A stretch of 37,507 nt of DNA from Clostridia bacterium (GTDB lineage Bacteria > Bacillota > Clostridia > Oscillospirales > Acutalibacteraceae): positions 1 to 37,507 of the forward strand of contig JAFSDL010000062.1 of assembly GCA_017436285.1 (NCBI GenBank), read 5' to 3'. The notes beneath the pieces are model-generated. The model was not told the DNA's origin, did no database searches, and was given only the letters and a program-made list of their open reading frames with translations. Every line of letters begins with the position of its first letter. Position 1 is the stretch's first letter. The position numbers and the translations under genes are program-made. Shown here in pieces: positions 2,762 through 29,150 of this stretch.

Positions 2762-2815
2762 TGGCAAGTTGAAAGTGGCAAGTGGCAAGTTTCGGGACCT
2801 GCGGTCGGCATTATA
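2762..2815 (-). repeat. Heptamer array plus hairpin and TATAAT: leader cassette copy 1
   Basis: Four seven-base units (TGGCAAG, TTGAAAG, TGGCAAG, TGGCAAG) run from 2762 to 2789. To the right come a short inverted repeat (GACC-GCA-GGTC) and ATTATA at 2810-2815, which reads TATAAT on the minus strand. On the coding strand of the LRR gene the order is therefore TATAAT, hairpin, heptamers, AGGAGT, ATG. The 48 bases 2761-2808 recur exactly at 26024-26071 in front of smpB. A third, diverged copy precedes dnaX. The promoter reading is inference: no good -35 box is visible. Confidence 0.8.
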
Positions 2816-2842
2816 AAAATGCACTATCGTAGTTTATTATGT

Positions 2843-3025
2843 GGTATAGGCAAGCCTATACCTTACGGTTACGACCCTATGTGACATATTTTAAACCATC
2901 AAACCTGTAGGGCACTGGCTTGCCTGTGCCACAGAAAATGTAGAGATAATGCGAAGTTTATAAATGTTTGGAAGCGTAGCTTCCCCTAAACTTTCCACTT
3001 GCCATTTGCCACTTTCAACTTGTTA
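2843..3025. repeat. Intergenic mosaic of palindromes and an inverted heptamer array
   Basis: This gene-free stretch holds two related palindromes with a GGCAAGCC/GGCTTGCC core (2843-2862 and 2911-2930), the palindrome GGAAGCGTAGCTTCC (2970-2984), and five heptamers CTTTCCA, CTTGCCA, TTTGCCA, CTTTCAA, CTTGTTA (2991-3025). The last array is the reverse complement family of the one at 2762-2789, so the 264-base block 2762-3025 has inverted, heptameric ends like a miniature mobile element. No transposase or target duplication is evident. Related modules recur at 5638-5740 and 26025-26175. Confidence 0.7.
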
Positions 3026-3067
3026 CCTAAATTATACACCCTTTCTCCACTTTTGTATATACCCCAA

Positions 3068-3143
3068 ATGTATATTTTTCTTTAATAATATGCATAATCG
3101 TAAAAATATACATAAAAAACTGTATATTGTGAATTAATTTTCA
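3068..3143. promoter_or_regulatory. Inverted repeat and ArgR-box-like site upstream of the ABC operon
   Basis: A perfect 12-base inverted repeat, ATGTATATTTTT at 3068-3079 and AAAAATATACAT at 3102-3113, flanks an AT-rich spacer with TATGCATA at its middle. At 3130-3143 TGAATTAATTTTCA differs by one base from the E. coli-type ARG-box core TGAATWWWWATTCA and ends 8 bases before the -35 box. An arginine-repressor family site is plausible for an amino acid importer, but AT-rich sequence gives such matches by chance, so the factor is unproven. Confidence 0.35.
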
Positions 3144-3151
3144 AAATGTTC

Positions 3152-3180
3152 TTGCAATTTCCTTTTATTAGTTGTATAAT
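3152..3180 (+). promoter_or_regulatory. Sigma-A promoter of the amino acid ABC operon
   Basis: TTGCAA at 3152-3157 and TATAAT at 3175-3180 are 17 bases apart. The predicted transcript starts near 3187 and carries a short leader with CGGAAG (3192-3197) able to pair with CTTCCG (3214-3219) ahead of the ribosome site GAGG at 3233. Confidence 0.8.
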
Positions 3181-3245
3181 TCACTCACAAACGGAAGAGT
3201 GGTAAAATATCAGCTTCCGAAAAAATTTATTGTGAGGTTTTTAAA

Positions 3246-4052
3246 ATGAAAAAGTTTTTAAAAGTTGCTTCCATAGTTCTTGTTATTGCTATGATTGCTT
3301 GCTTTGCAGCTTGCGGTGGTAACACAGATGCTGACACAAACAATGGTGACACAACAGAAGCTCCCAAGGCAGTTCTTACAATGGCTACAAATGCTGCATT
3401 CCCTCCCTACGAATATAAAGAGGGCGACGCTTATGCAGGTATTGATATTGAAATTGCACAGGCTATTGCTGACAAGCTTGATATGACTCTTGAAATCAAG
3501 GATGTTGAGTTTGGTTCTATCATCGGTGGTGTTCAGTCTGGTAAGTTCGATATGGGTATTGCAGGTATGACAGTTACTGATGAAAGACTCGAAAGCGTTA
3601 ATTTCTCTACATCTTACGCAACAGGTATTCAGGTTGTTATCGTAGCAGAAGGTTCAGACATCAAATCTCTTGATGACCTCAAGGGTGACGGTTCAATGAA
3701 ATTTGGCGTTCAGCAGGATACAACAGGCGATATCTACGCTTCTGACACAATCGAGAATGGCGGATACGGTGAGGATAATGTTATCCGTTACAAAACCGGT
3801 GCAGACGCAGTTCAGGCTCTTAAAGCAGGTAAGGTTCAGGCAGTTATTATTGACAATGAGCCCGCAAAAGCTTTTGTAGCAGCTAACGAAGGTCTTGCAA
3901 TTCTTGATGGCGAGTGGACAAAAGAAGATTATGCAATCGCTATTGCTAAAGAAAACACAGAACTTCTCACTAAGGTTAACGATGCTCTCGCTGAGCTTGA
4001 AGATGAGGGCAAGCTTGCAGAAATTATTGATAAATATATCCCTGCAGAATAA
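3246..4052 (+). CDS. Polar amino acid ABC transporter, substrate-binding lipoprotein
   Basis: 268 residues. A hydrophobic signal peptide ends in FAAC, making Cys23 the likely lipidated residue, followed by a Thr/Asn/Asp-rich linker to about residue 40. Residues 42-266 are an SBP_bac_3 domain: MATNAAFPPYEY, the family's GIDIEIAQAIADKL block, FDMGIAGMTVTDERLESVNFS and the hinge region around AVIIDNEPA. It captures an amino acid outside the membrane and hands it to the permease encoded next. Substrate cannot be read from sequence; Glu/Gln, Arg or cystine are usual for this clan. First gene of the operon, with its own good promoter, and separated from the permease by a hairpin that probably raises its dose. 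Confidence 0.92.
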   Translation: MKKFLKVASIVLVIAMIACFAACGGNTDADTNNGDTTEAPKAVLTMATNAAFPPYEYKEGDAYAGIDIEIAQAIADKLDMTLEIKDVEFGSIIGGVQSGKFDMGIAGMTVTDERLESVNFSTSYATGIQVVIVAEGSDIKSLDDLKGDGSMKFGVQQDTTGDIYASDTIENGGYGEDNVIRYKTGADAVQALKAGKVQAVIIDNEPAKAFVAANEGLAILDGEWTKEDYAIAIAKENTELLTKVNDALAELEDEGKLAEIIDKYIPAE

Positions 4053-4071
4053 GTTTATTTAAACAATCTGG

Positions 4072-4101
4072 TACGAGGGCGGTAATCCGTCCTCGTATTT
4101 T
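4072..4101 (+). terminator. Partial terminator between binding protein and permease
   Basis: TACGAGGGCGG (4072-4082) pairs with CCGTCCTCGTA (4087-4097) around a TAAT loop, with one G-U pair, followed by only four T. Such a weak terminator typically lets a fraction of transcripts continue, giving more binding protein than membrane parts. Its sequence closely resembles the hairpin at 5606-5629. Confidence 0.75.
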
Positions 4102-4124
4102 GTGGTATTTAGGAGTGAAATTTT

Positions 4125-4868
4125 TTGAAATCTCTGGAATTATGGTTTCTTGAAATGAAGGATGTTTTTATTCTTTGTTTTGTAGATGATAACCGTTGGG
4201 AATGGCTCTTAGAGGGCTTTATTAACTCAATAATAATCACAGTACTTGCTATAGTCATCGGTCTGTTTTTTGGTATTGTGCTTGCAGCTATACGCTCTTC
4301 CTATGACAAAAATGAGGAATCACTGAAGCTTAGGGGTGGAGTAGGATTTGTGCTTCTTAAGGCTTTAAATGGTATCGCCAAGGTGTATATCACCGTTATA
4401 CGTGGTATTCCTGTGGTTGTTCAGCTTATGTTGTGGTACTTTGTAATTCTTGTTTCTCAGGATAATGATATTCTTGTTGCAATAGTTGCATTCGGCTTCA
4501 ATTCTGCTGCCTATGTAGCAGAAATTTTCAGAGGCGGTATTATGTCAATTGATAATGGTCAGTTTGAAGCAGGAAGAAGCCTTGGCTTTAACTATGTGCA
4601 GACCATGATATATATTGTTCTTCCCCAAACAATAAAAGCAACTCTCCCAACTCTTCTTAATGAAATTATAGCTTTACTTAAGGAAACATCCGTTGCAGGT
4701 TATGTTGGTATTATGGATCTGACAAAGGCAGGCGACCTTATCAGAGGACGAACCTTTGAAGCGTTTATGCCACTTATAGCAGTTGCAATTATTTATCTTG
4801 TAACAGTTATTGTACTTACCAAGGTATTCAGTATAATCGAGAGGAGGTTGCGCAAAAATGAGCGCTAA
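4125..4868 (+). CDS. Polar amino acid ABC transporter, permease
   Basis: 247 residues from a TTG start with AGGAG at 4111-4115; no ATG lies near. It is a BPD_transp_1/HisM-type permease: an N-terminal periplasmic-side helix, then about five membrane spans, and the EAA loop read as [33 protein letters not shown] near residues 145-180, which contacts the ATPase. It forms the membrane channel, probably as a homodimer because only one permease is encoded. A cytosolic insertion around residues 60-75 ([15 protein letters not shown]) is a little longer than usual. It overlaps the ATPase gene by 11 bases, indicating translational coupling. Confidence 0.92.
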
Positions 4869-5601
4869 TGCATTTATTAAAGTAACCGACCTTAAAAAGC
4901 ACTATAATGGTGGCGAGGTTAAGGCTCTCGATGGTGTTAACTGCGAGATTAATAAAGGCGAGGTTGTTGTTATTATCGGACCCTCAGGCAGCGGTAAATC
5001 CACCTTCCTTCGTTCTCTTAACCTTCTTGAAATCCCCACAAACGGTGAGATTATTTTCAACGGAACAGATATTACTGCTCCTAAAACAAATATTAATAAG
5101 CATCGTCAGAAAATGGGTATGGTTTTCCAGCATTTTAACCTTTTCCCCAATATGACTGTTCTTAAAAATATGACAAGCGCACCTGTGACCATCCTTAAAA
5201 AGAGCAAGGAAGAGGCAGAAAAAAAGGCTCTTGAATTGCTCGAAAGAGTTGGTCTTAAGGACAGGGCAGACGCTTACCCCAGCCAGCTTTCAGGCGGTCA
5301 GAAGCAGAGAGTTGCAATTGTCCGTGCTCTTTGTATGGAGCCCGATGTTATGCTCTTTGATGAGCCCACATCCGCTCTCGACCCCGAAATGGTAGGCGAG
5401 GTTCTTGACGTTATGAAGGAGCTTGCCGCAGAGGGTATGACAATGGTTGTTGTTACTCACGAAATGGGCTTTGCAAGAGAGGTTGCAACCCGCGTAATCT
5501 TTATGGATGAGGGCATCATTCAGGAGGATGGCACACCCGAGGAAATCTTCGACAATCCCAAATGCGAAAGGCTTAAATCTTTTTTAGGAAAAATCTTATA
5601 A
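4858..5601 (+). CDS. Polar amino acid ABC transporter, ATPase (GlnQ/HisP type)
   Basis: 247 residues, full length for the family. Walker A is GPSGSGKST (41-49), the Q-loop is in [13 protein letters not shown], the signature is [15 protein letters not shown], Walker B is [13 protein letters not shown] and the switch His is in VVTHEMGFA. It powers uptake through the upstream permease. The start overlaps the permease end. The gene is followed within 5 bases by a terminator hairpin, so the operon is binding protein, permease, ATPase. High-affinity amino acid specificity cannot be narrowed further from the ATPase. Confidence 0.94.
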
Positions 5602-5605
5602 TTGT

Positions 5606-5637
5606 AGGGGGCGGAACAATCCGTCCTCTTGTTTTTT
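5606..5637 (+). terminator. Intrinsic terminator of the ABC operon
   Basis: AGGGGGCGGA (5606-5615) pairs with TCCGTCCTCT (5620-5629), loop ACAA, with two G-U pairs, then TGTTTTTT. Shares its core (GGGCGG, then TCCGTCCTC) with the hairpin at 4072-4097. Confidence 0.85.
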
Positions 5638-6031
5638 AGTGAGGAGTGAGGAAGGAGGAGTGTTGGGGAAGCTTCGCTTCCAAATATTATATATGCTTCG
5701 CGTTACTTTTGAATTATCTAAGGCACAGGCAAGCCTGCACTTTACAGTGCATTACAGTTTCACCTATGGTGAAATGACGCTCGAGGGATCGCGTCAAGAA
5801 CTCTCCACCACCCGACCGACTTCATTATAAACTTTATTATCAGGCGCGCTTGAAACTAAAATCAAATAAATATAAAAATCAAAAGGTGGTCCCCCTCTCT
5901 TCGAAGAGAGGCAGAACCACCAATAACTTTATTACTCTTTTTTACTCCTTGCGAAGCTCTGGTGACTGGTGACTGGCGACTGGTGACTATTCAAGACCGT
6001 TCCCTACATTCCGCATTCCACATTCGCCGAT
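5638..6031. repeat. Gene-free gap with heptamer arrays and palindromes
   Basis: No convincing gene lies between 5602 and 6195. Seen instead: heptamers AGTGAGG, AGTGAGG, AAGGAGG, AGTGTTG (5638-5665); palindrome GGAAGCTTCGCTTCC (5667-5681); GCTTCGCGTTA (5695-5705, again at 8710-8720); a GGCAAGCC-core palindrome (5722-5740); heptamers GGTGACT, GGTGACT, GGCGACT, GGTGACT (5961-5988); and TACATTC, CGCATTC, CACATTC (6005-6025). The last family is the complement of the array at 8677-8711. Confidence 0.75.
5885..5921. other. Long hairpin with perfect 18-base palindrome core
   Basis: GGTGGT (5885-5890) pairs with ACCACC (5916-5921) around a perfect palindrome at 5894-5911 (CCTCTCTT, CGAAGAGAGG). It is not followed directly by a T-run on either strand, so it is not a standard terminator. 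It may be a repeat palindrome or a processing site. Confidence 0.5.
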
Positions 6032-6099
6032 AGGCAACTTGCACAACAAACTCCATCTTATTTTGATATTTCTTACAAGGGGTAAAATTGCATAATAGG

Positions 6100-6174
6100 T
6101 TGAAAAATTTTTGCGGTTGTGTTATACTTTCTCTATTAGTAGTGTGTTAAAGTATGTCATTGTGTTTTAACACA
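6100..6174 (+). promoter_or_regulatory. Promoter and operator-like palindrome of the GPH symporter gene
   Basis: TTGAAA (6100-6105) and TATACT (6123-6128) are 17 bases apart. Downstream, in the leader, TGTGTTAAA (6143-6151) is inverted at 6166-6174, and 6161-6174 is itself the palindrome TGTGTT-TT-AACACA. A regulator of the sugar symporter binding here is plausible; the factor is unknown. Confidence 0.65.
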
Positions 6175-6195
6175 AAATCTACGGAGGTGTATCTT

Positions 6196-7764
6196 TTGGC
6201 AGACGAAAAAACAAATGTTGTTGAAACGCCGGAAATAGACGCTGCTTCCCGTGAGTATGTCTATGAAAACAGAAGATATGTCGGTATGAAGGAAACAATC
6301 TGGTATGTTGTTTACGATATGTGCCAGAGCTTCAATATTGACTCTTTTAACGACCGTTTCATCACAAGTATTCTTCAGATTGACCTTGACTATCAGACAT
6401 TCGTTAGTGTTTTTAACGGCTTCTGGGATGTTATCAACGATATCTTTACAGCGGCAATCGTTGAGAAAACCCGTACCCGTTGGGGTAAATTCAAGCCCTA
6501 TCTTGTAGGTCTCGGTATTCCCGGCACATTGGGTACTTGCTTCTATTGGCTTCTTCCTATGTTCTTCAAGGGCAAGGGCGCAAGGGATATGACAAAATTC
6601 CTTACATATTTTATTCTTGCTGTTGTCCGTGAGGGTGCAGGTACATTCCGTGCTATTGCAAAAACAGGTATGCTGGCTACCATAACGCCGCACCCTGTTG
6701 ACCGTACGCGACTAATCACTATGGCGGAGTTCTTCTCGGGTCTTCTGGGTGAAAAGCTTCCACAGCAGATTCTTACAGTTATCATCGACCTTATCGGTAA
6801 TAAGGTTATTAACCTTTCATATACCTCAACCTTTATGTTTATGGGTAACTTTACTGCAATTGTAAGCGGTGTTGCATCCCTTATCTTCTGCGTTATGACC
6901 CGTGAGCGTGTTCTTCAGTCTGTTGAAACACCCAGTGTTGTGCAGAGCCTGAAATCAGTTGTTAACAACAAGCCCATCTTGTTGCTTACTCTTTCAGAAA
7001 CTCTTTCAAACTTCAGTGTCGGCGGTAGCATCAACGACTACTACATTGACGTTCTTAATTTCGCGTCAATGACAATGGTTGCCGGTATTCCCGGTGCTAT
7101 TATTAACCCCTTCTCATTCTCTCTCGTGCCTTGGTTCAGAAGAAAGTTCTCAACAAAAACTCTCTACCTCCTGGGTACAAAGAGCCAGCCACTCCTTGAT
7201 ATTCCCGTATTCCTTATCGGTATGATAGGTGGTAAGCATAACGGTATTTATAAAAAGGTTCTGCCCATGTTCTTCGTTATGGCAATCAAGGAAGCCATTT
7301 ATATGGTATTCTGGGGCGTTCGTCGAGTTATTCCCAGTGAAATGTATAACGAGTCTATGGACTATTGTGAATGGAAGAACGGTTATCGTACAGAGGCTAT
7401 GACCTCCGTTGCCCGTGACCTTACAAAGAAGCTTGCAAGCATTGCAAACTCTGCTCTTTCCCTTCAGCTTAAGAAGCTTATCGGTTACGATATTTCTTCT
7501 TACACAAGAGGCGAGGCTCAGACAGATAATACCAAGTTCGGTCTTTTCGCTATGGCAACAATTATTCCAACAGTTACAGGTCTTCTTGGTATCGTTCCTA
7601 TTCTCTTCTATGACCTTAGTGGTGAAAAGAGAGAACGTATGTATGCGGAGCTTCTTGCTCGTCGTGAAGAAGCAGGTAAGCTTGCTATGGCAGGCGATAA
7701 AGAATCAATGGAAAAGCTTGCTAAAGAGCAGTTGTCCGTTGGTGAACAGAAAAGAGAGCTTTAA
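6196..7764 (+). CDS. GPH-family (MelB-like, MFS_2) sugar:cation symporter
   Basis: 522 residues from TTG at 6196, chosen because GGAGGTG at 6183-6189 is ideally spaced; an in-frame ATG at 6154 has no ribosome site. About twelve membrane spans. The family motif is FWDVINDIFTAAIVEKTRTRWGKFKPYL at residues 76-103 (matching the WDaInDP...RTRWGKfRPyl signature of melibiose, glucuronide and xyloside carriers). A long loop around residues 380-400 and a charged C-terminal tail of about 35 residues (REEAGKLAMAGDKESMEKLAKEQ) make it longer than MelB. It probably imports an oligosaccharide or glycoside with Na+ or H+. No glycosidase gene is adjacent, so the substrate is open. It ends in a strong terminator. 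Confidence 0.88.
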   Translation: MADEKTNVVETPEIDAASREYVYENRRYVGMKETIWYVVYDMCQSFNIDSFNDRFITSILQIDLDYQTFVSVFNGFWDVINDIFTAAIVEKTRTRWGKFKPYLVGLGIPGTLGTCFYWLLPMFFKGKGARDMTKFLTYFILAVVREGAGTFRAIAKTGMLATITPHPVDRTRLITMAEFFSGLLGEKLPQQILTVIIDLIGNKVINLSYTSTFMFMGNFTAIVSGVASLIFCVMTRERVLQSVETPSVVQSLKSVVNNKPILLLTLSETLSNFSVGGSINDYYIDVLNFASMTMVAGIPGAIINPFSFSLVPWFRRKFSTKTLYLLGTKSQPLLDIPVFLIGMIGGKHNGIYKKVLPMFFVMAIKEAIYMVFWGVRRVIPSEMYNESMDYCEWKNGYRTEAMTSVARDLTKKLASIANSALSLQLKKLIGYDISSYTRGEAQTDNTKFGLFAMATIIPTVTGLLGIVPILFYDLSGEKRERMYAELLARREEAGKLAMAGDKESMEKLAKEQLSVGEQKREL

Positions 7765-7776
7765 TTTAAAGTATTT

Positions 7777-7805
7777 TCGGCGGCACGATGTGTCGCCGAT
7801 TTTTT
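7777..7805 (+). terminator. Intrinsic terminator after the GPH symporter gene
   Basis: TCGGCGGCAC (7777-7786) pairs with GTGTCGCCGA (7790-7799), one G-U pair, followed by six T. Confidence 0.9.
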
Positions 7806-7827
7806 AAGAAAAATGAAAGGAGCAATT

Positions 7828-8622
7828 ATGGCAAAATCAAGTTATTTATCTAATTCAGCAAAAATATTAGCCGTTTTGTCGGCAATGCTCCTTCTGGCTA
7901 ATATTCTTGTGGCGGTAGGCTCAATGGGGAATTTACCCGAGGCTTCCAAGCTTGCCACAAGCTTTTCTAATTTGTGCCTTTATGTTGTTTTGGTTATGGG
8001 TTATGTTGCATTTAATGGTGAGGCAGTTTGCCATAAGCGATACAGAAACAGAAAAAGAAAAAAGCTTTTAGGTTTTTTTAAATTGCTTCTGCTTCTCGCT
8101 TTTCTTTCAAGATATATAAAGGTTGTTCCTGAAAATCTTGTTATGACAATACCTGCACAGAGCACAGGTGGTATTGTTGCCAGATTTCTTATGAGCCTTT
8201 TATCAACCGCTTGCTCATTCGGGTTTCTTTTTGGCGCAATTTCTCTTTGGTATTTTATAAGAGATAAGGAGCATACAAGGCTTCTTTTTCCCCAACTGCT
8301 TTCCCTTATGCTCAGCATAATTTATAATTTCTTTAAATTTATGAATTATGCTGTCGGTAAATATCATGTAACAGTTTTAGGAGAGGGGATTTCTGAGATT
8401 TTTGCACGGGATGAAATTGCACAGCTTCTTTGCATTTTCCAATTCCTTGTTAATTTGATAATGCTCATTTGCGTTGCTGTGTTTTATGGTAAAAAAGGCG
8501 ATGAAGAGCAGGAAATTCTCGATAAAAACACCAAGGTGCTTAAAAAAGCAAGAAATGTTTACAACGACGAGGGCTACGGAATTGATACCTTTGAGGATGA
8601 TTATTTAAGCTCTGATAATTGA
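7828..8622 (+). CDS. Unknown multi-span membrane protein
   Basis: 264 residues. ATG at 7828 is chosen because AAAGGAG precedes it; the in-frame ATG at 7813 overlaps that site. Hydrophobic segments fall near residues 12-32, 47-64, 82-97, 117-144, 152-172 and 198-220, so five or six spans. A strongly basic loop (HKRYRNRKRKKLLG, residues 69-82) follows the second span and should be cytosolic. The C-terminal 40 residues are charged and acidic, likely cytosolic. I do not recognise the family. It sits alone between two terminators, just downstream of the symporter gene; no promoter is obvious, so limited read-through is possible. Function unknown. Confidence 0.75.
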   Translation: MAKSSYLSNSAKILAVLSAMLLLANILVAVGSMGNLPEASKLATSFSNLCLYVVLVMGYVAFNGEAVCHKRYRNRKRKKLLGFFKLLLLLAFLSRYIKVVPENLVMTIPAQSTGGIVARFLMSLLSTACSFGFLFGAISLWYFIRDKEHTRLLFPQLLSLMLSIIYNFFKFMNYAVGKYHVTVLGEGISEIFARDEIAQLLCIFQFLVNLIMLICVAVFYGKKGDEEQEILDKNTKVLKKARNVYNDEGYGIDTFEDDYLSSDN

Positions 8623-8640
8623 AAAGTGAATAAATCAGTA

Positions 8641-8677
8641 ACACCATCTGTATAAATTTACAGGTGGTGTTTTTTTA
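8641..8677 (+). terminator. Intrinsic terminator of the unknown membrane protein gene
   Basis: ACACCATCTGTA (8641-8652) pairs with TACAGGTGGTGT (8659-8670) with one G-U pair, then seven T. The T-run touches the heptamer array that starts at 8677. Confidence 0.9.
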
Positions 8678-8720
8678 TGCGGAATGCGTAGTGCGGAATG
8701 CGGAATGAGGCTTCGCGTTA
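8677..8720 (+). repeat. Heptamer array ATGCGGA x5 plus GCTTCGCGTTA module
   Basis: ATGCGGA, ATGCGTA, GTGCGGA, ATGCGGA, ATGAGGC occupy 8677-8711 without a break in the seven-base period. GCTTCGCGTTA follows at 8710-8720, identical to 5695-5705. The array lies about 40 bases upstream of the GHL10-type gene, and its unit is the complement of the array at 6005-6025. Confidence 0.8.
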
Positions 8721-8747
8721 TTTTTATAAGCTCTGAATGGTGGTTTT

Positions 8748-22191: not shown

Positions 22192-22225
22192 TCGGCATCG
22201 CAGGTTACTGTGATGCCGATTTTTT
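22192..22225 (+). terminator. Intrinsic terminator of the InlB-repeat gene
   Basis: A 12-base stem, TCGGCATCGCAG (22192-22203) with CTGTGATGCCGA (22208-22219), loop GTTA, one G-U pair, then six T. Confidence 0.93.
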
Positions 22226-22285
22226 ATTGCTTTTTTTACATATAATGTGATATATTAAATTTACATAAATATGGGAGGGGTATTT

Positions 22286-23605
22286 GTGAGCAGAAAAATA
22301 ATAGTAGCAGGTGGTGGTCACGGTGGTATTGCAGTGGCTTCAATCCTTTCTCGTAATGGCTATGATGTAACTGTTTATGAAAAAAACTCAAGAGAAAATA
22401 TGGGTTACGACTGGACTGATATTTTTGACCCTAAGGCACTTGCTAAAGCGGATATACCAATGCCTGATAATTCTCTTTTTGAATACAAAGAGAATATGAC
22501 CTTTTATTCACCCAATGAAAAAACTCCCATAAAGCAACAGGTTCCCGAAGCAGAGCTGGAAATTAAAATGGAGCGTAAGGATATCTATAATTTGCTTATA
22601 GATACTGCAGAGAAAAACGGAGTTGAGTTTGTTTATAATTGTAATATAGAAAGAGCCATTATAGAAGATAATCGCGTTGTGGGTATAAATACCTCAATGG
22701 GTCAGGCGTACGGTGATTTGATAATAGATGCCTGCGGTTGCGAATCACCTGTAAGAATCAGTCTGCCTGAGGAGTTCGGTATAGAAAAGCACCCTGCTAA
22801 AAACGAAAAATTCTATGTTTACAGAGCTTTCTATAATAAAGCAAATGAAAAACCTGTTGAAGATAAATATAAAGTATGTCTTCTTCCCGAAGGTGAATTG
22901 GGGATTGGTTGGGTTGCAACTGAGAATGAATATACAGATTTGCTTATTGGTAGATTTGAGCCCTTTGATATGGCAGAGGTTGAAAGAACTGCAGAATACT
23001 TCAGAAGTCGTAACGAAAGCCTCGGAACAAAGGTTGTTCGCGGTGGTCAGTTTGTTGAAATTCCTGTTCGTCAGTCCCTTTCTCTTATGGTTGCCAATGG
23101 TTATGCTGCGATAGGTGATAGTGCATTTATGACGGTCCCCATTATAGGTTCAGGTATTGCAAATTCATTAAGAGTGGCACCCTTGCTTGCAAAAGCCATA
23201 ATGGATGACAGAAGCGAAACCTATACCGCAGAAGCTTTGTGGCAGTATCAATATAAATTCTATAAAAATTTAGGAGCGGGCTTGGCACCCTTAGCGGCGG
23301 TAAAGCTTTTGCTTACCAAAATCACACCCGAACAGCTTGACTACATATTTGAAAAAGGTATACTTACCTGGAAAGAGATGACTATTACTGCAGATACCAC
23401 GAGCATAACAGATTTTGTGCATCCTGCACTGGATATGCCCAAACGCGCAGTTTCAATCGTAAAAGACAAGGACCTTTTAAAGAAAATGCTAAAGGTTGGT
23501 GCTGATATTGGTAAGATAATGGCGCTCTGCATAGCTCTTCCGAAAGAGTATAATAAGGAAAAAGTAAAGCATTGGGCGGAAAAATATAACAAAATATTCA
23601 AATAA
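22286..23605 (+). CDS. FAD-dependent oxidoreductase, geranylgeranyl-reductase-like
   Basis: 439 residues from GTG at 22286, chosen because GGGAGGGG (22273-22280) is a ribosome site for it; the in-frame ATG at 22271 overlaps that site. N-terminal dinucleotide fold KIIVAGGGHGGIAVASILS with the acidic end YDVTVYEK; a second FAD contact GYAAIGDSAFMTVPIIGSGI near residue 270, where the Gly-Asp pair binds the ribityl chain. This is the p-hydroxybenzoate hydroxylase/geranylgeranyl reductase clan. A role in lipid or quinone saturation or in hydroxylation is possible; substrate unknown. A weak TTGCTT (22227), N18, TATATT (22251) promoter may drive it. Alone between two terminators. Confidence 0.78.
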   Translation: MSRKIIVAGGGHGGIAVASILSRNGYDVTVYEKNSRENMGYDWTDIFDPKALAKADIPMPDNSLFEYKENMTFYSPNEKTPIKQQVPEAELEIKMERKDIYNLLIDTAEKNGVEFVYNCNIERAIIEDNRVVGINTSMGQAYGDLIIDACGCESPVRISLPEEFGIEKHPAKNEKFYVYRAFYNKANEKPVEDKYKVCLLPEGELGIGWVATENEYTDLLIGRFEPFDMAEVERTAEYFRSRNESLGTKVVRGGQFVEIPVRQSLSLMVANGYAAIGDSAFMTVPIIGSGIANSLRVAPLLAKAIMDDRSETYTAEALWQYQYKFYKNLGAGLAPLAAVKLLLTKITPEQLDYIFEKGILTWKEMTITADTTSITDFVHPALDMPKRAVSIVKDKDLLKKMLKVGADIGKIMALCIALPKEYNKEKVKHWAEKYNKIFK

Positions 23606-23661
23606 AAAAACAGGGAACATTCCAAGTCATTTGAACTTGAAATGTTCCCTGAAGCTTTTTT
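23604..23661. terminator. Bidirectional terminator between convergent genes
   Basis: CAGGGAACATT (23611-23621) pairs with AATGTTCCCTG (23641-23651); inside, CAAGT and ACTTG extend the structure. Seven A on the left and six T on the right serve both strands. Confidence 0.92.
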
Positions 23662-24133
23662 ATTCGGGTAACTTGCAAACATCAATCCATTCAATGAAAG
23701 AGCTGGAATATTTTTCTAATTCCTCAGGTGTGAGTTCAATGGCACTGTTACTGCTTCCGCAGGCAGGGAAAACAGTTTCGAAACGCTTGATGCTATCATC
23801 AAGGTAAACCTTAACACCGTCGTTAATAGCAAAGGGACAAACACCGCCAACTGCGTGACCGATTTTCTCTTCAACCTCGTCAAATGAAAGCATTTTAGCC
23901 TTTGCGCCAAAAAAGGCTTTATATTTCTTGTTATCTATTTTCGCATCTCCTGCAGTAACAATCAGAATAGGAGAATCGTTAACAGAAAATGAAAGGGTTT
24001 TTGCAATTCTGCAACCGTCTGTGTTAAGTGCCTGTGCAGCAAGCTCAACCGTTGCACTTGAAACAGGAAATTCTAAAATTTTATCTTCAATATCATAGCC
24101 TTTAAAATAAGCTCTTACATTTTCGATGGACAT
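23660..24133 (-). CDS. YbaK/EbsC-type aminoacyl-tRNA deacylase
   Basis: 157 residues, single YbaK domain. Lys45 in CRIAKTLSF is the conserved catalytic-site lysine; GGVCPFAI (96-103) and ACGSSNSAIELT (124-135) are the other family blocks. These proteins clear mischarged tRNAs in trans, most often Cys-tRNA(Pro). Closest appearance is the bacterial YbaK/ProX group; which amino acid it clears is not readable. ATG at 24133 with AAAGGAG ahead on the minus strand. Single gene with its own promoter and a shared terminator. Confidence 0.88.
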   Translation of the reverse strand: MSIENVRAYFKGYDIEDKILEFPVSSATVELAAQALNTDGCRIAKTLSFSVNDSPILIVTAGDAKIDNKKYKAFFGAKAKMLSFDEVEEKIGHAVGGVCPFAINDGVKVYLDDSIKRFETVFPACGSSNSAIELTPEELEKYSSSFIEWIDVCKLPE

Positions 24134-24162
24134 ATAATCTGCTCCTTTGTGATGATATTTGT

Positions 24163-24191
24163 AGTATAGCAGAAATAATAATCAAGTTCAA
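24163..24191 (-). promoter_or_regulatory. Promoter of the YbaK-like gene
   Basis: On the minus strand TTGAAC (24191-24186) and TATACT (24168-24163) are 17 bases apart, with TGC before the -10 box. Confidence 0.75.
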
Positions 24192-24196
24192 GTTAA

Positions 24197-24365
24197 ATGA
24201 TATATCGAAGATGCGATATGATATACGGCTTTGACGTGTGATATATTTGCTATGCAAATATGAGATAATATCCGTTCCGTTATGCGCGAAGCGTATATCA
24301 TCTTCGGAGCAGATATCATAGCTTATAGCTATATCATCCGTGACCTTAGGGAACGGATATCATTG
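24197..24365. repeat. ATGATAT-type imperfect inverted repeat element
   Basis: About 170 bases between ybaK-like and ssrA. The left half repeats TGATAT on the plus strand, the right half repeats ATATCA, so the whole is a loose inverted repeat centred near 24285. Between the ATGATAT motifs lie small stem-loops such as ATTTGC-TAT-GCAAAT (24245-24259), CGAAGATG (24206-24213) with CATCTTCG (24299-24306), and TATCCGTTCC with GGAACGGATA. No transposase is encoded. I recall similar ATGATAT-spaced stem-loops in clostridial genomes; they look like non-autonomous repeats. Confidence 0.65.
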
Positions 24366-24396
24366 AAAAAAGCACTTCTTTCGAAGTGCTTTTTTT
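24366..24396 (-). terminator. Terminator of tmRNA
   Basis: GCACTTC (24372-24378) pairs with GAAGTGC (24383-24389), six A and seven T on the sides. On the minus strand it comes directly after the CCA end of tmRNA. Confidence 0.92.
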
Positions 24397-24397
24397 A

Positions 24398-24749
24398 TGG
24401 TGGAGATGATGGGAGTCGAACCCATGTCCGAAAATCTATTCCCGAAACTTTCTACGAGCGTAGTTTATCTTTTGAAATTCCCTTGGGGAAACGCCGATAA
24501 GCAGGCTTTAACCCTCGGTAGCCCTTTAGACCGTGACAAGATACAAGGCTCTCTCTTGTTCACGTGCACCGCTAAATGACGCTCCTATCTGAGTCGCGGT
24601 ACTCTCAGTAGGAACGGCAGCTGACTTAAGCAGCTGCTAAAACTGTTTTATTATTGTCAGTTATTTTTAAAAGTGTGGTTTTTAAAGCGGTACCACGCCT
24701 CTGCTCGCTTATAACGGTTCAAAATCCCCGTCGAAATCCTTTCATCCCC
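24398..24749 (-). ncRNA. ssrA: Transfer-messenger RNA (tmRNA)
   Basis: About 352 nt. The 5' end GGGGATG pairs with CATCTCC before the encoded ACCA 3' end; the T arm (GGGTTCGACTCCC type) and 5' GAAAGGATTTCGACGGGGA are diagnostic. The tag reading frame is at 24661-24626: T-D-N-N-K-T-V-L-A-A-A then TAA, with the stop placed in the loop of a GCAGCTG/CAGCTGC hairpin, as usual. The first codon appears to be ACU (Thr) where Ala is common; the exact resume codon is inferred. It rescues stalled ribosomes and marks their products for proteolysis, together with SmpB encoded 0.8 kb upstream on the same strand. Confidence 0.97.
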
Positions 24750-24760
24750 GGATATCTTTT

Positions 24761-24806
24761 GGTACATATACAGAACATCAAATTGCTCTGTATATGTACC
24801 TTTTTT
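24761..24806. other. 14-base perfect hairpin between the XRE gene and ssrA
   Basis: GGTACATATACAGA (24761-24774) pairs perfectly with TCTGTATATGTACC (24787-24800). The T-run (24801-24806) is on the plus-strand side, where no gene needs a terminator; on the minus strand the hairpin follows the XRE gene stop by 7 bases and ends 11 bases before the mature tmRNA end. It could mark RNA processing of a joint transcript, or be a remnant palindrome. Confidence 0.7.
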
Positions 24807-24807
24807 G

Positions 24808-25383
24808 TTATTCTATTATAAATCTGACAATTGTGCCATCTTCGGCTTCAACCTTGAAAACCTCGCCGGTTGCTCCGTCTTCAACTATATTGAGAATTTC
24901 ATCAAGCTGAACACCGTTTAATGTATTGTTGCCTAAAACACCGGAAATACCATTACCCATTTTAGCAAATCTTTTTATTGTTGAAAAGGGGAGGGAAACA
25001 TTTACCGGATTTTGATTTTGTTTAGTGACATTAATAGTGAAGCTTAATTTGCTTGTATCAACGGATTTTGTTTTTTGCTCTTCGGTTTTCTTTTGTACAT
25101 TTCCTAATAATTCATCGATACTTATATTAAGCAGTTGAGAAATTTTAGGAAGTAACTGAATATCAGGACAGGATACATCATTTTCCCATTTTGATACTGC
25201 TTGAGGAGTTACGCCCAAAAGCTCAGAAAACTCCTCTTGTGTGTAGTTGCTTTTCTTTCTGCCTTCGGCAATTTTTTGACCTAATGTTGAGACTTCTGCA
25301 TCCTCTTCGTTGATAACGGGAGCATCATTTTCCTGCTCATTAATAACGTTCTTTTCTTGTTCTTTTCTCTTAAATATTGACAT
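24808..25383 (-). CDS. XRE-family regulator with C-terminal stress-type domain
   Basis: 191 residues from ATG at 25383 with AAGGAG ahead. Residues 1-30 are highly charged; residues 34-90 are a HTH_3 domain (LGQKIAEGRKKSNYTQEEFSELLGVTPQAVSKWENDVSCPDIQLLPKISQLLNISIDELLG). The last 75 residues (VNVSLPFSTIKRFAKMG...LDEILNIVEDGATGEVFKVEAEDGTIVRFIIE) recall the small module found beside DUF4097/YvlB-like envelope-stress proteins; this is memory only. DNA binding is near certain; target unknown. It lies between smpB and ssrA on the same strand, and two direct repeats in its leader suggest self-control. Confidence 0.83.
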   Translation of the reverse strand: MSIFKRKEQEKNVINEQENDAPVINEEDAEVSTLGQKIAEGRKKSNYTQEEFSELLGVTPQAVSKWENDVSCPDIQLLPKISQLLNISIDELLGNVQKKTEEQKTKSVDTSKLSFTINVTKQNQNPVNVSLPFSTIKRFAKMGNGISGVLGNNTLNGVQLDEILNIVEDGATGEVFKVEAEDGTIVRFIIE

Positions 25384-25400
25384 AATTCTTTCTCCTTTAC

Positions 25401-25426
25401 TTCGGTAAAATTTTCCTTTCGGTAAA
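25401..25426 (-). promoter_or_regulatory. Direct repeat in the leader of the XRE gene
   Basis: TTCGGTAAA occurs at 25401-25409 and 25418-25426, 17 bases start to start, between the coding start and a nearby TTCT-ATCGG-AGAA dyad at 25431-25443. A candidate autoregulatory operator; no promoter of good quality is seen. Confidence 0.4.
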
Positions 25427-25537
25427 TCCATTCTATCGGAGAATATGTTTTTTTAGAAGATAGCAAAGGTTGAAATGGAGGTTTTTTTATAAACTATTGG
25501 TTGTAAAGCCATAAAACCAACTAAACTATCAGTTGAA

Positions 25538-26005
25538 TTACCTGTTTCTTTCAGCTAAACTGCGTTCGATGTTGCGTTGTGCATCTCTTTTGGCTTCAGC
25601 TTCTCGCTTGTCGTAGTTTTTCTTACCTTTACATAATCCTACAAGCATTTTTGCTTTTCCTCTTTCGTTGAAATAAACAGAGAGGGGGATGAGGGCACAG
25701 CCTTGTTGCTTAACCTCGCCCATAAGCTTCATAATTTCTTTTTTATGCATTAAAAGACGCTTGGGTCTTAAAGGGTCACGGTTGAAACGGTTACCCATTT
25801 CATAGGGTGATATATGCACACCATTTGCAAGCATTTCACCATTTACAACATTGCACCAGGAATCCTTAAGGTTAAGCTTACCTGCACGGATGGATTTGAT
25901 TTCCGTACCGAAAAGCTCAATTCCTGCTTCATAGGTTTCAAGAACAAAGTAGTCATGGTAAGCCTTTTTGTTCTGTGCAACGGTTTTATTTTCCTTTGTA
26001 GCCAT
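25538..26005 (-). CDS. smpB: SsrA-binding protein
   Basis: 155 residues, full length. AYHDYFVLETYEAGIELFGTEIKSIRAGKLNLKDSW, the block VHISPYEMGNRFNRDPLRPKRLLMHKKEI and the basic tail GKKNYDKREAEAKRDAQRNIERSLAERN are diagnostic. It carries tmRNA into the A site of stalled ribosomes. AAGGAG precedes the ATG at 26005. Its leader is the second copy of the heptamer cassette (26025-26085), which contains TATAAT elements on the coding strand and may hold its promoter. The XRE gene follows after 150 bases and tmRNA after that. Confidence 0.97.
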   Translation of the reverse strand: MATKENKTVAQNKKAYHDYFVLETYEAGIELFGTEIKSIRAGKLNLKDSWCNVVNGEMLANGVHISPYEMGNRFNRDPLRPKRLLMHKKEIMKLMGEVKQQGCALIPLSVYFNERGKAKMLVGLCKGKKNYDKREAEAKRDAQRNIERSLAERNR

Positions 26006-26024
26006 AACTACTCCTTTCTAAAAG

Positions 26025-26175
26025 TGGCAAGTTGAAAGTGGCAAGTGGCAAGTTTCGGGACCTGCGGTCGGAAATTATAATTATAATATTCGGAAGCGAA
26101 GCTTCCCCTTAATTTTCCACTTTCCATTTTAAATTTTCAATTCAATTACGTATTACGTATTAAGCATTACGAATT
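26025..26175. repeat. Leader cassette copy 2 and two more heptamer arrays up to the recR stop
   Basis: From left to right: TGGCAAG, TTGAAAG, TGGCAAG, TGGCAAG (26025-26052); hairpin GACC-GCA-GGTC; TATAAT on the minus strand twice (26074-26079, 26080-26085); palindrome GGAAGCGAAGCTTCC (26092-26106); TTTTCCA, CTTTCCA, TTTTAAA, TTTTCAA, TTCAATT (26113-26147); ACGTATT, ACGTATT, AAGCATT, ACGAATT (26148-26175). The last array overlaps the recR stop codon. 26024-26071 equals 2761-2808 exactly. The whole gap between recR and smpB consists of these modules; no normal terminator is present. Confidence 0.85.
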
Positions 26176-26773
26176 ATAATTCGCTTCTGCCTGCCAACGC
26201 TCTCATAAGTGTGACATCGTCAGCATACTCAATATCTGCACCAACGGGAATACCATAAGCAAGTCTTGTTACCTTAACACCGAATGGCTTTATTAACTTG
26301 CTTATGTACATTGCGGTTGTGTCACCCTCAATAGTGGGGTTTGTTGCCATAATAAGCTCTGTTATTTCGCTTTTTGCACATCTTTCAACAAGGCTTTTTA
26401 TGGTGAGCTGTTCAGGACCTATACCATTCATAGGTGAAATAACTCCGTGAAGAACGTGGTAAACGCCACTGAAATCTCTTGTTCTTTCCATTGCAAGAAC
26501 ATCCTTGGGCTCTTCCACAACGCAGACTGTTGCTTTATCTCTGTTTACGCTTTCGCATATAGGACAAAGCTCGTTTTCTGTAAGGTTATGGCAAAGTGCA
26601 CAACGGTGTATTTTTGTGTGGGCATTTATTATTGCTTCGGAAAATTCTTTTGCCTCTTCGTCAGTTAAATCAAGCACATGAAAAGCCATTCTCTGAGCAG
26701 TTTTTCTGCCGATTGAGGGCATTTTCTGAAATTGCTCAATTAACTTTTCAAGGGCCGCAACATCGTATGCCAT
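26174..26773 (-). CDS. recR: Recombination protein RecR
   Basis: 199 residues, normal length. Helix-hairpin-helix MPSIGRKTAQRMAFHVL (18-34), zinc finger Cys58-x2-Cys61 and Cys70-x2-Cys73, then TOPRIM with VCVVEEPKDVLAMERT and a Walker-like ATNPTIEGDTTAMYI. It acts with RecF/RecO to load RecA on gaps. One base separates its start from the ybaB stop, so it is the last gene of dnaX-ybaB-recR. Its final codons and stop lie inside a heptamer array, which may set the 3' end. Confidence 0.97.
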   Translation of the reverse strand: MAYDVAALEKLIEQFQKMPSIGRKTAQRMAFHVLDLTDEEAKEFSEAIINAHTKIHRCALCHNLTENELCPICESVNRDKATVCVVEEPKDVLAMERTRDFSGVYHVLHGVISPMNGIGPEQLTIKSLVERCAKSEITELIMATNPTIEGDTTAMYISKLIKPFGVKVTRLAYGIPVGADIEYADDVTLMRALAGRSEL

Positions 26774-26774
26774 A

Positions 26775-27122
26775 TCAGAAACCTAAGCCTGCGGGAAGTC
26801 CGAGTCCGCTTGTTGCACTACCCATCTTCTGCTCCATAGTATCGGATGCCTTGCGGATTGCTTCGTTAGTAGCTGCAATAATCATATCGGAGAGAATTTC
26901 AACATCGTCAGGGTCAACAACATCTGGCTGAATGTTAACAGAAACAACCTCGTGCTTGCCGGTTACAGTAACCTCAACTGCACCGCCACCTGCACTTGCA
27001 GAAAATTCAGAGCTTTCAACCTCTTCCTGAATACGAGCCATTTCGTTCTGCATATCCTGGATTTTTTTCATCATTGCAGCCTGAGAGTTTCCGCCGCCTT
27101 GGTTAGGAATTCTTGCTTTCAT
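26775..27122 (-). CDS. ybaB: YbaB/EbfC nucleoid-associated protein
   Basis: 115 residues, normal for the family. A Gly/Gln-rich start, a coiled-coil-prone helix MMKKIQDMQNEMARIQEEVESSEFSASAGGGAVEVTVTG and the block VVSVNIQPDVVDPDDVEILSDMIIAATNEAIRKASDTMEQKMG. A small dimeric DNA-binding protein that usually lies between dnaX and recR, as here. Its exact role is not settled in any organism. Confidence 0.95.
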   Translation of the reverse strand: MKARIPNQGGGNSQAAMMKKIQDMQNEMARIQEEVESSEFSASAGGGAVEVTVTGKHEVVSVNIQPDVVDPDDVEILSDMIIAATNEAIRKASDTMEQKMGSATSGLGLPAGLGF

Positions 27123-27148
27123 ATTATTCTACCATCCTTTTTTATGAT

Positions 27149-28927
27149 TTATTCTTCAATTATAAAATCTATATTGTGTTTACTGAGCTTTGAGAGAAAC
27201 GCATCAATTGGTTCAGCAGTTTCATCTGCAGCAGGGGAAGAACCGTCATTGTAAATCATCGGCTTGAGCTTTTCGCCTGTTGCCCGCATAAGTGCTTCTG
27301 CAATTGAATCTGCGTGCATTTTTTGAGTAAACATCTGACTGAATGCAGTATTTTTAGCTTTAATGAAAACTGTGTTACCTGCTCTGAAAGCAGTTGAGCC
27401 GATAAGCATCGGATATAAGGGTCTGCTTATTTTTGAAAGCTGATTTAAAGTGTTTTCCCAGGCTGCAAAGGGCACAGCGTTATCTGAATCTGTAACAATA
27501 CCTGTATCTATCTTTTGTGGTTGAGGTGCAAGTTGGGGAGCAACCTCTTTAATTTCTTCAACAACCTTTTCTTCGGGAGCTTCGGGGATGAACTCTTCAA
27601 AAGCAGGTGGCTCATCAAAGGGTATTTCATTGAGAGGAATTGCATCGGGCTCTTCAACCTGAACGGGAGCAGCCTCTTCAACCTCTTTAATTTCTTCAAC
27701 AACCTTTTGAGGTGCAGTTTCTTCTATCACTTTCTTCGGCTTCTGAGACTCTGCAACTGTGACTGTTACACCCTGAGCCTTTAGAATCATCAGTTGTGCT
27801 TCTAATTCATCAAGCCTGCGGATAACTGCCGCATTATCTGTGGAAAGAGCAGGCTCACACAGTCTTATAAGAGTGGTTTCTGTCTGAGCTCTCTGGTGAG
27901 AGCTGTATTTTAATTGTGAAGCCTCACGGCAAAGGGTCTCCATTATATGAAGAATTGTGCCATAGGTCATTTTCTCTGCGTTTTCCTTGTAGCGTTTGAG
28001 CTCATCAGGAGTGCTTACAATGAATTTTTCAGGATTTTTAGTGGTTTTTGCCATCATAATATTCCTGAAATGGTTAACAAGCTCACTCATAAGCCTTTCC
28101 ATATCGCAGGAAGAGGAATGGAGCCTGTCAATTATGTTGAGAACAGCGGGACTGTCCTGGTTTAAAAGGGCATCGGAAATTTCAAAAAGATAATCCTTTC
28201 CCAAAAGACCGGCTGCATTACCAACTGTGTTTACAGTAATGGGCTCGTTATAGCCTGCACATTGGTCAAGAATTGAAAGTGCATCACGCAAGGCACCATC
28301 AGAAACTCTTGCAATAAGAAGAGCAGCATCATTTGATAACTGCAAATTCTCATTTTCTGCAACTGTCATAAGTCTTGCGGCAATGTCTTCAGGCGGAATT
28401 CTCCTGAAATCAAAGCGTTGGCATCTTGAAAGAATAGTTGCAGGAAGCTTCTGAACCTCGGTGGTTGCAAGAATAAATAAAACGTGCTCTGGTGGTTCTT
28501 CAAGAGTTTTCAAAAGGGCATTAAAAGCACCGGTTGAAAGCATATGAACCTCGTCAATAATATAAACTCTGTATTTTGCGGCAGCAGGAGTGAAATTAAC
28601 CTCATCCCTTAAGTCACGTATGTTGTCAACACTGTTGTTGCTTGCAGCGTCAATTTCCGTAACATCAAGAATTGAACCATCATCAATGCCCTTACAAATA
28701 CGACATTCGTTACAGGGACTGCCATTAACGGGATTAAGGCAGTTAACCGCCTTTGCAAGAATTTTTGCACAGGTAGTCTTACCGGTACCTCTGGAGCCGG
28801 TAAAAAGATACGCGTGGGAAAGCCTGCCGGTAGAAATCTCATTCATAAGAGTTTCTGTGATATGGTTCTGACCGGAAACATCCGAGAAAACCTGCGGTCT
28901 CCATTTTCTGTATAATGCTCTGTACAA
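27149..28927 (-). CDS. dnaX: DNA polymerase III subunit gamma/tau
   Basis: 592 residues from TTG at 28927, chosen because it gives MYRALYRKWRPQVF, the exact family start, with AAGGAG ahead; the longer frame upstream translates intergenic repeats. Walker A TGSRGTGKT (43-51), zinc cysteines 63, 72, 75 and 78, Walker B VYIIDEVHML, and SRC motif LSRCQRFDFR. Residues 380-500 are an acidic Pro/Glu-rich linker with VVEEIKEV repeated twice; the C-terminal 110 residues are the tau-like domain. It is the clamp-loader motor and ties the replisome together. I see no A-AAA-AAG slip site, so a short gamma form is not predicted. Confidence 0.97.
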   Translation of the reverse strand: MYRALYRKWRPQVFSDVSGQNHITETLMNEISTGRLSHAYLFTGSRGTGKTTCAKILAKAVNCLNPVNGSPCNECRICKGIDDGSILDVTEIDAASNNSVDNIRDLRDEVNFTPAAAKYRVYIIDEVHMLSTGAFNALLKTLEEPPEHVLFILATTEVQKLPATILSRCQRFDFRRIPPEDIAARLMTVAENENLQLSNDAALLIARVSDGALRDALSILDQCAGYNEPITVNTVGNAAGLLGKDYLFEISDALLNQDSPAVLNIIDRLHSSSCDMERLMSELVNHFRNIMMAKTTKNPEKFIVSTPDELKRYKENAEKMTYGTILHIMETLCREASQLKYSSHQRAQTETTLIRLCEPALSTDNAAVIRRLDELEAQLMILKAQGVTVTVAESQKPKKVIEETAPQKVVEEIKEVEEAAPVQVEEPDAIPLNEIPFDEPPAFEEFIPEAPEEKVVEEIKEVAPQLAPQPQKIDTGIVTDSDNAVPFAAWENTLNQLSKISRPLYPMLIGSTAFRAGNTVFIKAKNTAFSQMFTQKMHADSIAEALMRATGEKLKPMIYNDGSSPAADETAEPIDAFLSKLSKHNIDFIIEE

Positions 28928-28949
28928 AATATTCACTCCTTGAATAAAG

Positions 28950-29150
28950 TTGCAAGTTGGAAGTGGCAAGTTGGAAGTGGCAAGTATCGGGGCGAAGCCG
29001 ATTATAAAGATGCCAGATACCAGATGCCAGATGCCAGATGCCAGTATCGGGGCGCGAAAATGCGCCGTAGAAGATTTGGTAACAGTATCGCGACGCTTAA
29101 AATGCCGTGCGCAGCACCCGACATTCCTCACTCCTCATTCCTCATTCCTC
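28950..29150. repeat. Leader cassette copy 3 of dnaX and two further heptamer arrays
   Basis: TTGCAAG, TTGGAAG, TGGCAAG, TTGGAAG, TGGCAAG (28950-28984); a TCGG/CCGA hairpin (28986-29001) and TATAAT on the minus strand (29001-29006); ATGCCAG, ATACCAG, ATGCCAG x3 (29010-29044); GGGGCGC-GAAAAT-GCGCC stem (29049-29066); ATTCCTC, ACTCCTC, ATTCCTC, ATTCCTC (29123-29150). TATCGGGGCG flanks the middle array on both sides (28985, 29045). The stretch lies between SRP RNA and dnaX and holds no gene. Confidence 0.85.

Follow-up and report, generated by a model that had tools for sequence, protein, structure and literature searches.

Heptanucleotide arrays on a common skeleton in an Acutalibacteraceae genome and their possible role as ends of a dispersed hairpin-bearing repeat

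Seven-base arrays in the window

The window analysed here is a stretch of 37,507 nucleotides of contig JAFSDL010000062.1 (assembly GCA_017436285.1) from a Clostridia bacterium of the family Acutalibacteraceae, and our subject is the set of short tandem arrays with a seven-base period that lie in its spacers, among them those beside recR and between yebC and dnaX. An earlier note on this sequence had pointed to at least twelve such arrays. Tandem Repeats Finder (TRF) and a lag scan recovered arrays with the seven-base period at all of these places: nine were found by both methods, those at 5638 and 6005 by TRF only, and that at 26113 by the lag scan only. The array at 6005 is weak, with 2.9 copies.

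The lag scan of the window (score at least 10) gave 10 segments at lag 7, 2 at lag 6, one each at lags 11, 15, 17 and 18, and none at lags 4, 5, 8, 9, 10, 12, 13, 16, 19 and 20; the 7 segments at lag 14 are the same period-7 arrays seen again. Genome samples were scanned at a threshold of 13, with one block-wise Markov shuffle per sample. In the genome of the window (G000), period 7 made up 10 of 22 segments in 349,690 bases of contigs without a match in an earlier array search, where the next best period had 3, and 31 of 37 segments in 327,776 bases of contigs with matches. In 400,000 bases of the congener G009 it accounted for 16 of 25 segments, and period 14 for 5 more. The shuffled samples contained no segment at period 7. 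The earlier note had proposed testing period 7 against its neighbouring periods, and in the sampled own genome and in G009 period 7 is far ahead of them.

All arrays had been placed in gene-free gaps, except for the edge of one over the recR stop. That edge was confirmed: an array of AATACGT units on the minus strand (26145..26176, found by TRF), which abuts an element described below and has no GGG behind it, covers the recR stop. The other arrays are intergenic given the probable gene starts, although those at 2761 and 29125 overlap the starts of the longest open reading frames (ORFs). The longest-ORF start of dnaX is probably too early, because DnaX homology begins at residue 70, and that of the first gene is likely too early as well, since a downstream start sits behind a site resembling a ribosome-binding site.

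The ART skeleton and the end module

The units had been described as different from array to array. Their letters do vary, but most arrays are variants on one skeleton and not unrelated: oriented one way, they share A-R-T (R = A/G) every seven bases. In G000 and G009, 77 of 82 arrays fitted ART plus four free bases, against 37.1 expected under column permutation, a figure that overstates independence because arrays share units. Arrays below 15% G+C were dropped from this count and from those of array-pair orientation, flanks and GGG given below. The five arrays below the ART cut comprised three of AGATGCC type, one of AGCGCAA type and one mixed.

Five-ART ladders, one mismatch being allowed, were counted by position, so that long arrays count repeatedly. 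In 714,973 bases of G000, 109 ladders were found at spacing 7 against 11 for the reversed motif, with 22 against 66 at spacing 6 and 7 against 10 at spacing 8; in 400 kb of G009 the numbers at spacing 7 were 44 and 2. For ladder length we used 86 distinct sites whose only anchor was ART[GTA]TCGGG with a hairpin, the ladder itself not being required. ART occupancy upstream of the anchor was 0.73, 0.76, 0.64 and 0.67 at steps 1-4 and 0.07 at the fifth step, the background being 0.038. With two of three letters sufficing, exactly five ARTs were present at 44 sites, fewer at 21 and more at 21. Three to five units had been given earlier; the commonest form is four heptads plus a final ART.

The ladders also have a polarity, the fourth base of the unit being mostly T in units 1 and 2 (45 and 43 of 72 distinct arrays) and G in units 3 and 4 (53 and 58 of 72). 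Here, as in the hairpin, pairing, ladder-length and T-run counts, each distinct array, flank or site was counted a single time. Within arrays, identity to the next unit in the four free bases was 0.77 in G000 and 0.90 in G012, compared with 0.52 and 0.66 between arrays (15 and 20 elements, respectively). Some local process homogenises the four variable bases inside each array.

A typical end module consists of (ARTNNNN)x4 + ART (31 bases), two further bases, CGGG, a small hairpin and an AT-rich core (ATTATAA). GGG was found within 12 bases behind 53 of 84 arrays (about 63%; 7 of 10 in the window), together with a hairpin in 45, and behind 49 of the 62 arrays whose units were neither xxCC nor AATAGCA. 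Among the 77 ladders with [CT]GGG within 5 bases, the distance to it was exactly 2 bases in 64. The hairpins fall into 28 stem/loop classes, some of them short and seen only once. A pairing score of at least 6 was reached by 42% of 67 distinct tails and by 2.2% of shuffled ones. In 17 rows of one hairpin geometry, all 68 of 68 cells pair and the covariation score was 0.632 against 0.130 when shuffled (0 of 500); two stem pairs show compensating changes, and two other pairs never vary. One hairpin accompanies up to eight different units and one unit accompanies different hairpins; therefore the ladder and hairpin halves have been reshuffled.

These observations divide the earlier proposal of a process that counts seven bases. 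Local homogenisation of the four variable bases is present, and a seven-base register event therefore remains part of the story. The idea that such a process builds arrays anywhere was not borne out; the period belongs in large part to a dispersed element, because over half of the arrays lead into GGG, typically in the form of 31-base end modules that are followed by a hairpin and lie mostly in inverted pairs.

In the window, one element occupies 2760-3020 (261 bases). Its left module on the plus strand (2760..2790) has four heptads plus ART of AGTGGCA type, the first ART being degenerate, and was recovered by TRF, the lag scan and a module model, R1 (E 1.1e-19), which we built from 17 modules of G000, G009, G017 and G001 that match it by construction. 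The hairpin GACC-TGC-GGTC lies behind the array (2796..2806); this and all other hairpins were read by a sequence check. On the minus strand, an inverted end array of AGTGGCA/AGTGGAA units (2990..3020, lag scan) is accompanied by the hairpin GGAAGC-GTA-GCTTCC of the right module (2970..2984, plus-strand letters). A complete element of 120 bases is found at 26023-26142. It consists of a left module of AGTGGCA type (26023..26053, plus strand, R1 E 6.1e-18), the hairpin GACC-TGC-GGTC (26059..26069), the right hairpin GGAAGC-GAA-GCTTCC (26092..26106, minus strand, plus-strand letters) and a closing right array of AATGGAA/AGTGGAA type (26112..26142, minus strand, lag scan).

Single modules and other arrays were also found. 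On the plus strand, a short array of AGTGAGG type (5638..5662, TRF) runs into GTTGGGG and the hairpin GGAAGC-TTC-GCTTCC (5667..5681), and an AGTTGGA/AGTGGCA module (28948..28985, TRF), one heptad longer than the common form, is followed by GGC-GAA-GCC (28991..28999). Close behind it, an AGATGCC array, with AGA in place of ART (29008..29044, TRF), continues into TATCGGGG and the hairpin GGCGC-GAAAAT-GCGCC (29051..29066). A plus-strand AATGCGG array (8677..8707) stands directly after the T-run of a terminator and has no GGG behind it, according to TRF and the reading of its flanks, and the weak minus-strand array noted above (6004..6025, TRF) has AATGCGG/AATGTGG units.

At 5959..5988 on the minus strand, TRF and flank reading gave an AGTCACC/AGTCGCC array whose minus-strand continuation is AGCTTCGCAAGG. 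Arrays of AGTCACC, AGTCGCC and AGATGCC units (window 5945-5988; loci L032, L036 and L114) often have this other kind of neighbour, GCTTCGCAAGG...TAAA plus a larger hairpin, and thus the heptad ladder seems to be common to a second type of element. The AGTCRCC-type arrays stay outside the module explanation.

Inward pairs and their distribution

Modules tend to face each other. In G012, which has at least 146 R1 matches, neighbouring modules within 400 bases were oriented '+-' in 38 cases, '--' in 8, '++' in 3 and '-+' in none; over the collected loci the corresponding numbers were 45, 14, 6 and 1. The 44 distinct inward pairs cluster in size, with 12 of 105-120 bases, 12 of 189-211 bases, 16 of 226-273 bases and 4 of other sizes. 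The elements are short, non-coding, multi-copy and dispersed like miniature inverted-repeat transposable elements (MITEs), and 41 of the 44 inward pairs measure 105-273 bases. Where MITEs have terminal inverted repeats, the elements have inward ART ladders, whose variable bases in left and right ends agree no better than those of random ends.

In G012, where 20 loci were picked around R1 matches, seven copies were 89-96% identical to L300 over 249-328 bases, which is a sign of recent spread. A match between the left and right ends of young G012 copies was not borne out by the comparison of end identity. At L301, L303, L305, L312 and L313 of the same genome, several elements border directly on the ATTAT core of a different element, as though inserted there. 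A search for long inward pairs, made in G012 alone, gave one such pair. It contains genes for DUF559, PqqD, an S24 peptidase and 23S IVP, and one 232-aa ORF without Pfam match; an autonomous copy was not found inside it, the genes being of host type.

Presence and absence at the same gap were found at two places. The yebC-dnaX spacer contains a bacterial small signal recognition particle (SRP) RNA gene (RF00169; 29203-29301 in the window), identified by RNA family search and followed by eye in 16 genomes, together with its terminator. In 10 of these 16 genomes no ladder is present; in the other 6 an element is. In the window, an AGTGAGG/AATGAGG module (29123..29153, minus strand, R1 E 4.9e-15) lies behind the SRP-RNA terminator with its hairpin GTGC-TGC-GCAC (29107..29117, minus-strand letters), and the same place is occupied in five sister species, eroded in one of them. 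Modules stand just after the terminator, or after a palindrome behind it, in G000, G006, G007, G008 and G020, the eroded one being that of G003. The letters of these ladders differ, yet G000, G006, G008 and G020 all have four heptads plus ART. The recR-smpB gap is 18-62 bases long in 13 of 15 relatives and 171 bases long, with arrays, in G000. In G003 and G009 (L059 and L060) a different insert with TTTGCGTTACTTTTAC-like ends lies where G000 has its arrays, and this makes the gap a hot spot.

With E values up to 1, a search for known RNA families had no match at the arrays. Away from the arrays, two sub-threshold matches to Gut-1 RNA (RF01706; E about 0.013 each) were seen at 24190-24365 of the window, beside the tmRNA.

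R1 matched 19 of 22 genomes of the genus, own included, so that the outcome named as a refutation in the earlier note, arrays not conserved as a class in relatives, did not occur. The counts, which are lower bounds because up to 150 candidates per genome were scored (27 in the order search, with stricter filters), ranged from at least 146 in G012, at least 120 in G007 and at least 98 in G000 down to 2 in G010. In the order, 30 of 197 genomes had matches (29 besides G000), all of them weak outside the genus. At 11 loci outside the genus, 21 ladders were read by eye, listed only when they had at least four perfect ARTs and with one overlapping run left out; of these, 18 had GG three bases beyond their final ART, and 14 consisted of exactly five ARTs. 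These loci were found with R1, so that the junction was partly selected for, and some of the ladders are not R1 matches themselves. The AGTCRCC array was found in 4 of 299 genomes of the own phylum, with 40 matches in G000, and the reversed control in 2 genomes, once each. No viral contig contained the 23-base element pattern. On plasmids, only two 32-base Klebsiella matches were found (H1 and H2), 94% identical to the letters of the AGTGGCA array and with no annotated feature under them.

Look-alike arrays occur far beyond the order. One unit was scanned for in this respect, and (ACTGGYG)x3ACTGG was present in at least 118 stretches of the GTDB collection, where our own arithmetic gives about 0.001 by chance. 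By their own titles, the records listed belong to Cyanobacteria, Acidobacteria, Planctomycetes, Bacteroidetes, Proteobacteria, a metagenome-assembled genome (MAG) of Ruminococcaceae, one labelled Halobacteriales, and others. In 80 of these stretches, after removal of the matched arrays, period 7 had 86 segments and no other period except 14 exceeded 9. ART was present in 42 of 56 distinct other units at these loci, against 26.4 +- 3.2 by letter shuffle; the loci were chosen by one unit, and their other arrays may be its descendants. The comparison of the window arrays with the short tandemly repeated repetitive (STRR) sequences of cyanobacteria, made in the earlier note, is thus apt, since cyanobacteria, like many other phyla, have ART heptads. 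Array pairs at the cross-phylum loci were not consistently inward ('-+' 12, '+-' 9) and lengths vary more there, which argues against carrying the module over to all phyla in a simple way. Planctomycetota MAG FR_29 (L155:286-991) carries a heptad array of 706 bases that passes from GGTTGGT-type to AGTCACC-type units. Two betaproteobacterial MAGs (L165 and L177) have the same 30 bases before an AGTCACC array, which may be a shared dispersed repeat or reflect related genomes.

Explanations and known systems

We lean, with moderate confidence, to the reading that more than half of the arrays are the end modules of one short non-coding hairpin-bearing repeat family that has spread through the spacers of the genus in the manner of MITEs or bacterial interspersed mosaic elements (BIMEs), moved in trans, with the ARTs as protein contacts seven bases apart. 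Two ends point at one another across an AT-rich core (ATTATAA) or a more extended body, and an enzyme or a recombination route acting in trans would move or copy the elements. The ARTs may be evenly spaced points of contact with a protein whose identical subunits bind in a row; the spacing would be kept while the four intervening bases drift because only the ARTs are contacted. A row of subunits each touching one ART would hold such a spacing, the omega protein of plasmid pSM19035 being a known case by analogy. Slippage or conversion inside each array would keep its own four bases alike. Since units are alike within an array and the two ends of an element are unlike, two forces seem to act: local copying of a unit onto its neighbours, and an outside force that would hold ART, the seven-base step, the usual five and the junction.

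Several results weigh against this reading. GGG was absent within 12 bases behind 31 of 84 arrays, including 13 of 17 with xxCC units (AGTCRCC type) and 5 of 5 of AATAGCA type, and two of five covariation measures did not exceed the shuffles. Small samples from other genomes gave a weaker ladder contrast, and 20 kb of G018 gave none, the ladder and its reversed control both numbering 10. Three of the 22 genomes of the genus (G004, G013 and G016) had no R1 match. For target-site duplications of 2-10 bases, no excess was found in the 44 inward pairs, and outside ART the left and right ends of one element were no more alike than random ends (15 elements of G000 and 20 of G012). The long inward pair of G012 encloses host-type genes and no transposase family, and no transposase was tied to the elements in the genus, where PF01797 was found in 9 of 22 genomes.

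Ordinary heptanucleotide simple sequence repeats (SSRs) arising from replication slippage would be the plainest alternative, an idea credited to Mrazek et al. 2007 in the available parts of PMC4692102 and PMC4679880, to which, as for the other papers cited below, our comparisons refer. Most bacterial genomes are reported there to have heptads as their commonest class of long SSR; adjacent units here are alike, 21 of the 86 anchored ladders exceed five ARTs, and some of the arrays in other phyla, up to 706 bases long, look as though they expanded freely. Free slippage is nevertheless weakened, because it predicts neither the sharp ART drop after five nor the polarity of the units, and the constant junction and hairpin, the inward pairs and the four-unit length kept at yebC-dnaX in four species despite changed units speak against it as well. 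We regard it as rather unlikely. That the arrays are sites of a host regulator or partition protein, with heptads bound in a row as by omega, hairpins serving as terminators or RNA-stability elements, and a merely incidental spread, also appears unlikely. Such a protein would fit the requirement of omega for at least four contiguous unspaced seven-base WATCACW repeats (PMC9499535), the common ladder here having four heptads plus ART, and a T-run lies within 15 bases of the start of 19 of 73 modules, an A-run within that distance of 3 of them (T-run background 9.2%). However, the four bases between the ARTs vary, unlike WATCACW, a core that is not the common unit of these arrays, and 10 of 16 genomes do without an element at the yebC-dnaX gap. 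PF07764 (omega) had no match in the 22 genomes, a result that does not imply absence, as the control genomes were silent too.

Movement as elements of the repetitive extragenic palindromic (REP) kind by a tyrosine transposase, either REP-associated (RAYT) or of IS200 type (PF01797), would account for hairpins in opposed pairs without target duplication. PF01797 is present in G000, G012, G007 and G018, which have the four highest module counts, and counts are higher where it is present (median 82 vs 33, p 0.09; p 0.07 for above-cut-off matches). On the other hand, the draft genomes G003 (80 matches), G006 (86), G001 and G021 have 68-86 matches and no PF01797, G013 has PF01797 and no module match, and a module lies beside the gene at only one of six loci examined, that of G000, the flanks of the other five being free of modules. 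The PF01797 genes (L279-L284) come in two sizes, about 172 aa (G000, G007 and G013) and about 250-260 aa (G007, G012, G018 and G020). No GTAG or CGTC tag was found at a constant place, and 10 of 76 tails of 45 bases hold one somewhere. We give this origin a low probability. PF12784 (YhgA-like nuclease) had no match in the 22 genomes, with the control silent too, so that this is not informative. Scarcely credible is a telomerase-like reverse transcriptase that writes heptads onto DNA ends before insertion. DRT10 makes tandem-repeat complementary DNA from a short RNA template (PMC12632851), and a varying unit with a fixed period would be in keeping with this; but its best described repeat has 9 nucleotides, others vary in length, and chromosomal integration is not described in the available part of that paper. 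RVT_1 was confined to 4 of 22 genomes, the module-rich G000, G012, G007, G009, G003 and G018 not being among them, and module counts do not differ with it, which weakens this source.

The known systems resemble the elements in part. Bacterial heptanucleotide SSRs (STRR in cyanobacteria, GGGAATC in Xanthomonas, TAACTGA in Beggiatoaceae) are mostly intergenic, with a strict seven-base period and few units, like the arrays here. Four named units (AATCGGG; AATCCCC/AGTCCCC; AGTTATC; AATCACT) hold ART on one strand (PMC4692102, PMC4679880), as a random heptamer does nearly half the time. They are described there as SSRs, whereas here mostly a five-ART ladder forms one end of a paired hairpin element. 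The Porphyromonas MITE BrickBuilt, which has a 23-nt minisatellite inside, is likewise short, non-coding and dispersed with inverted ends, and its copies are also without target duplication of constant length (PMC4596501). In our elements, in contrast, the tandem array is the end itself, with period 7, no target duplication and no parental insertion sequence found. The REP/BIME families (GTAG/CGTC) share small intergenic palindromes, opposed dimers and varying stems (PMC3733652), but have a constant tag where our elements carry a 31-base heptad ladder. The omega operators of pSM19035, to which a ribbon-helix-helix protein binds, are like the ladder in having unspaced seven-base repeats of which at least four are needed, but they have a fixed core, ATCAC, and the available text of PMC9499535 does not describe them as dispersed or as accompanied by hairpins. 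Searches of an open-access library turned up no account of clostridial hairpin elements with heptad ends, subscription papers lying outside that scope.

A wider proposal can be put forward only tentatively. Heptad arrays across bacteria (STRR, those of Xanthomonas and Beggiatoaceae, and the ACTGGYG arrays of many phyla and of one record labelled archaeal) may form one class of mobile DNA, whose ends would be recognised by their seven-base ART spacing and not by sequence, through a protein of repeating subunits, while the bases between drift and are re-homogenised locally. The heptad richness of many bacterial genomes remains an open remark in the papers cited, and for a large part of the arrays studied here there is now an anatomy, in which a hairpin follows a ladder whose length is mostly fixed, the modules lie as inverted pairs, and the occupied sites vary from one sister species to the next. 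If true, recognition of an end by its spacing, the letters in between being free, would set such a mobile element apart from the usual ones, and it could explain why searches based on sequence would miss it.

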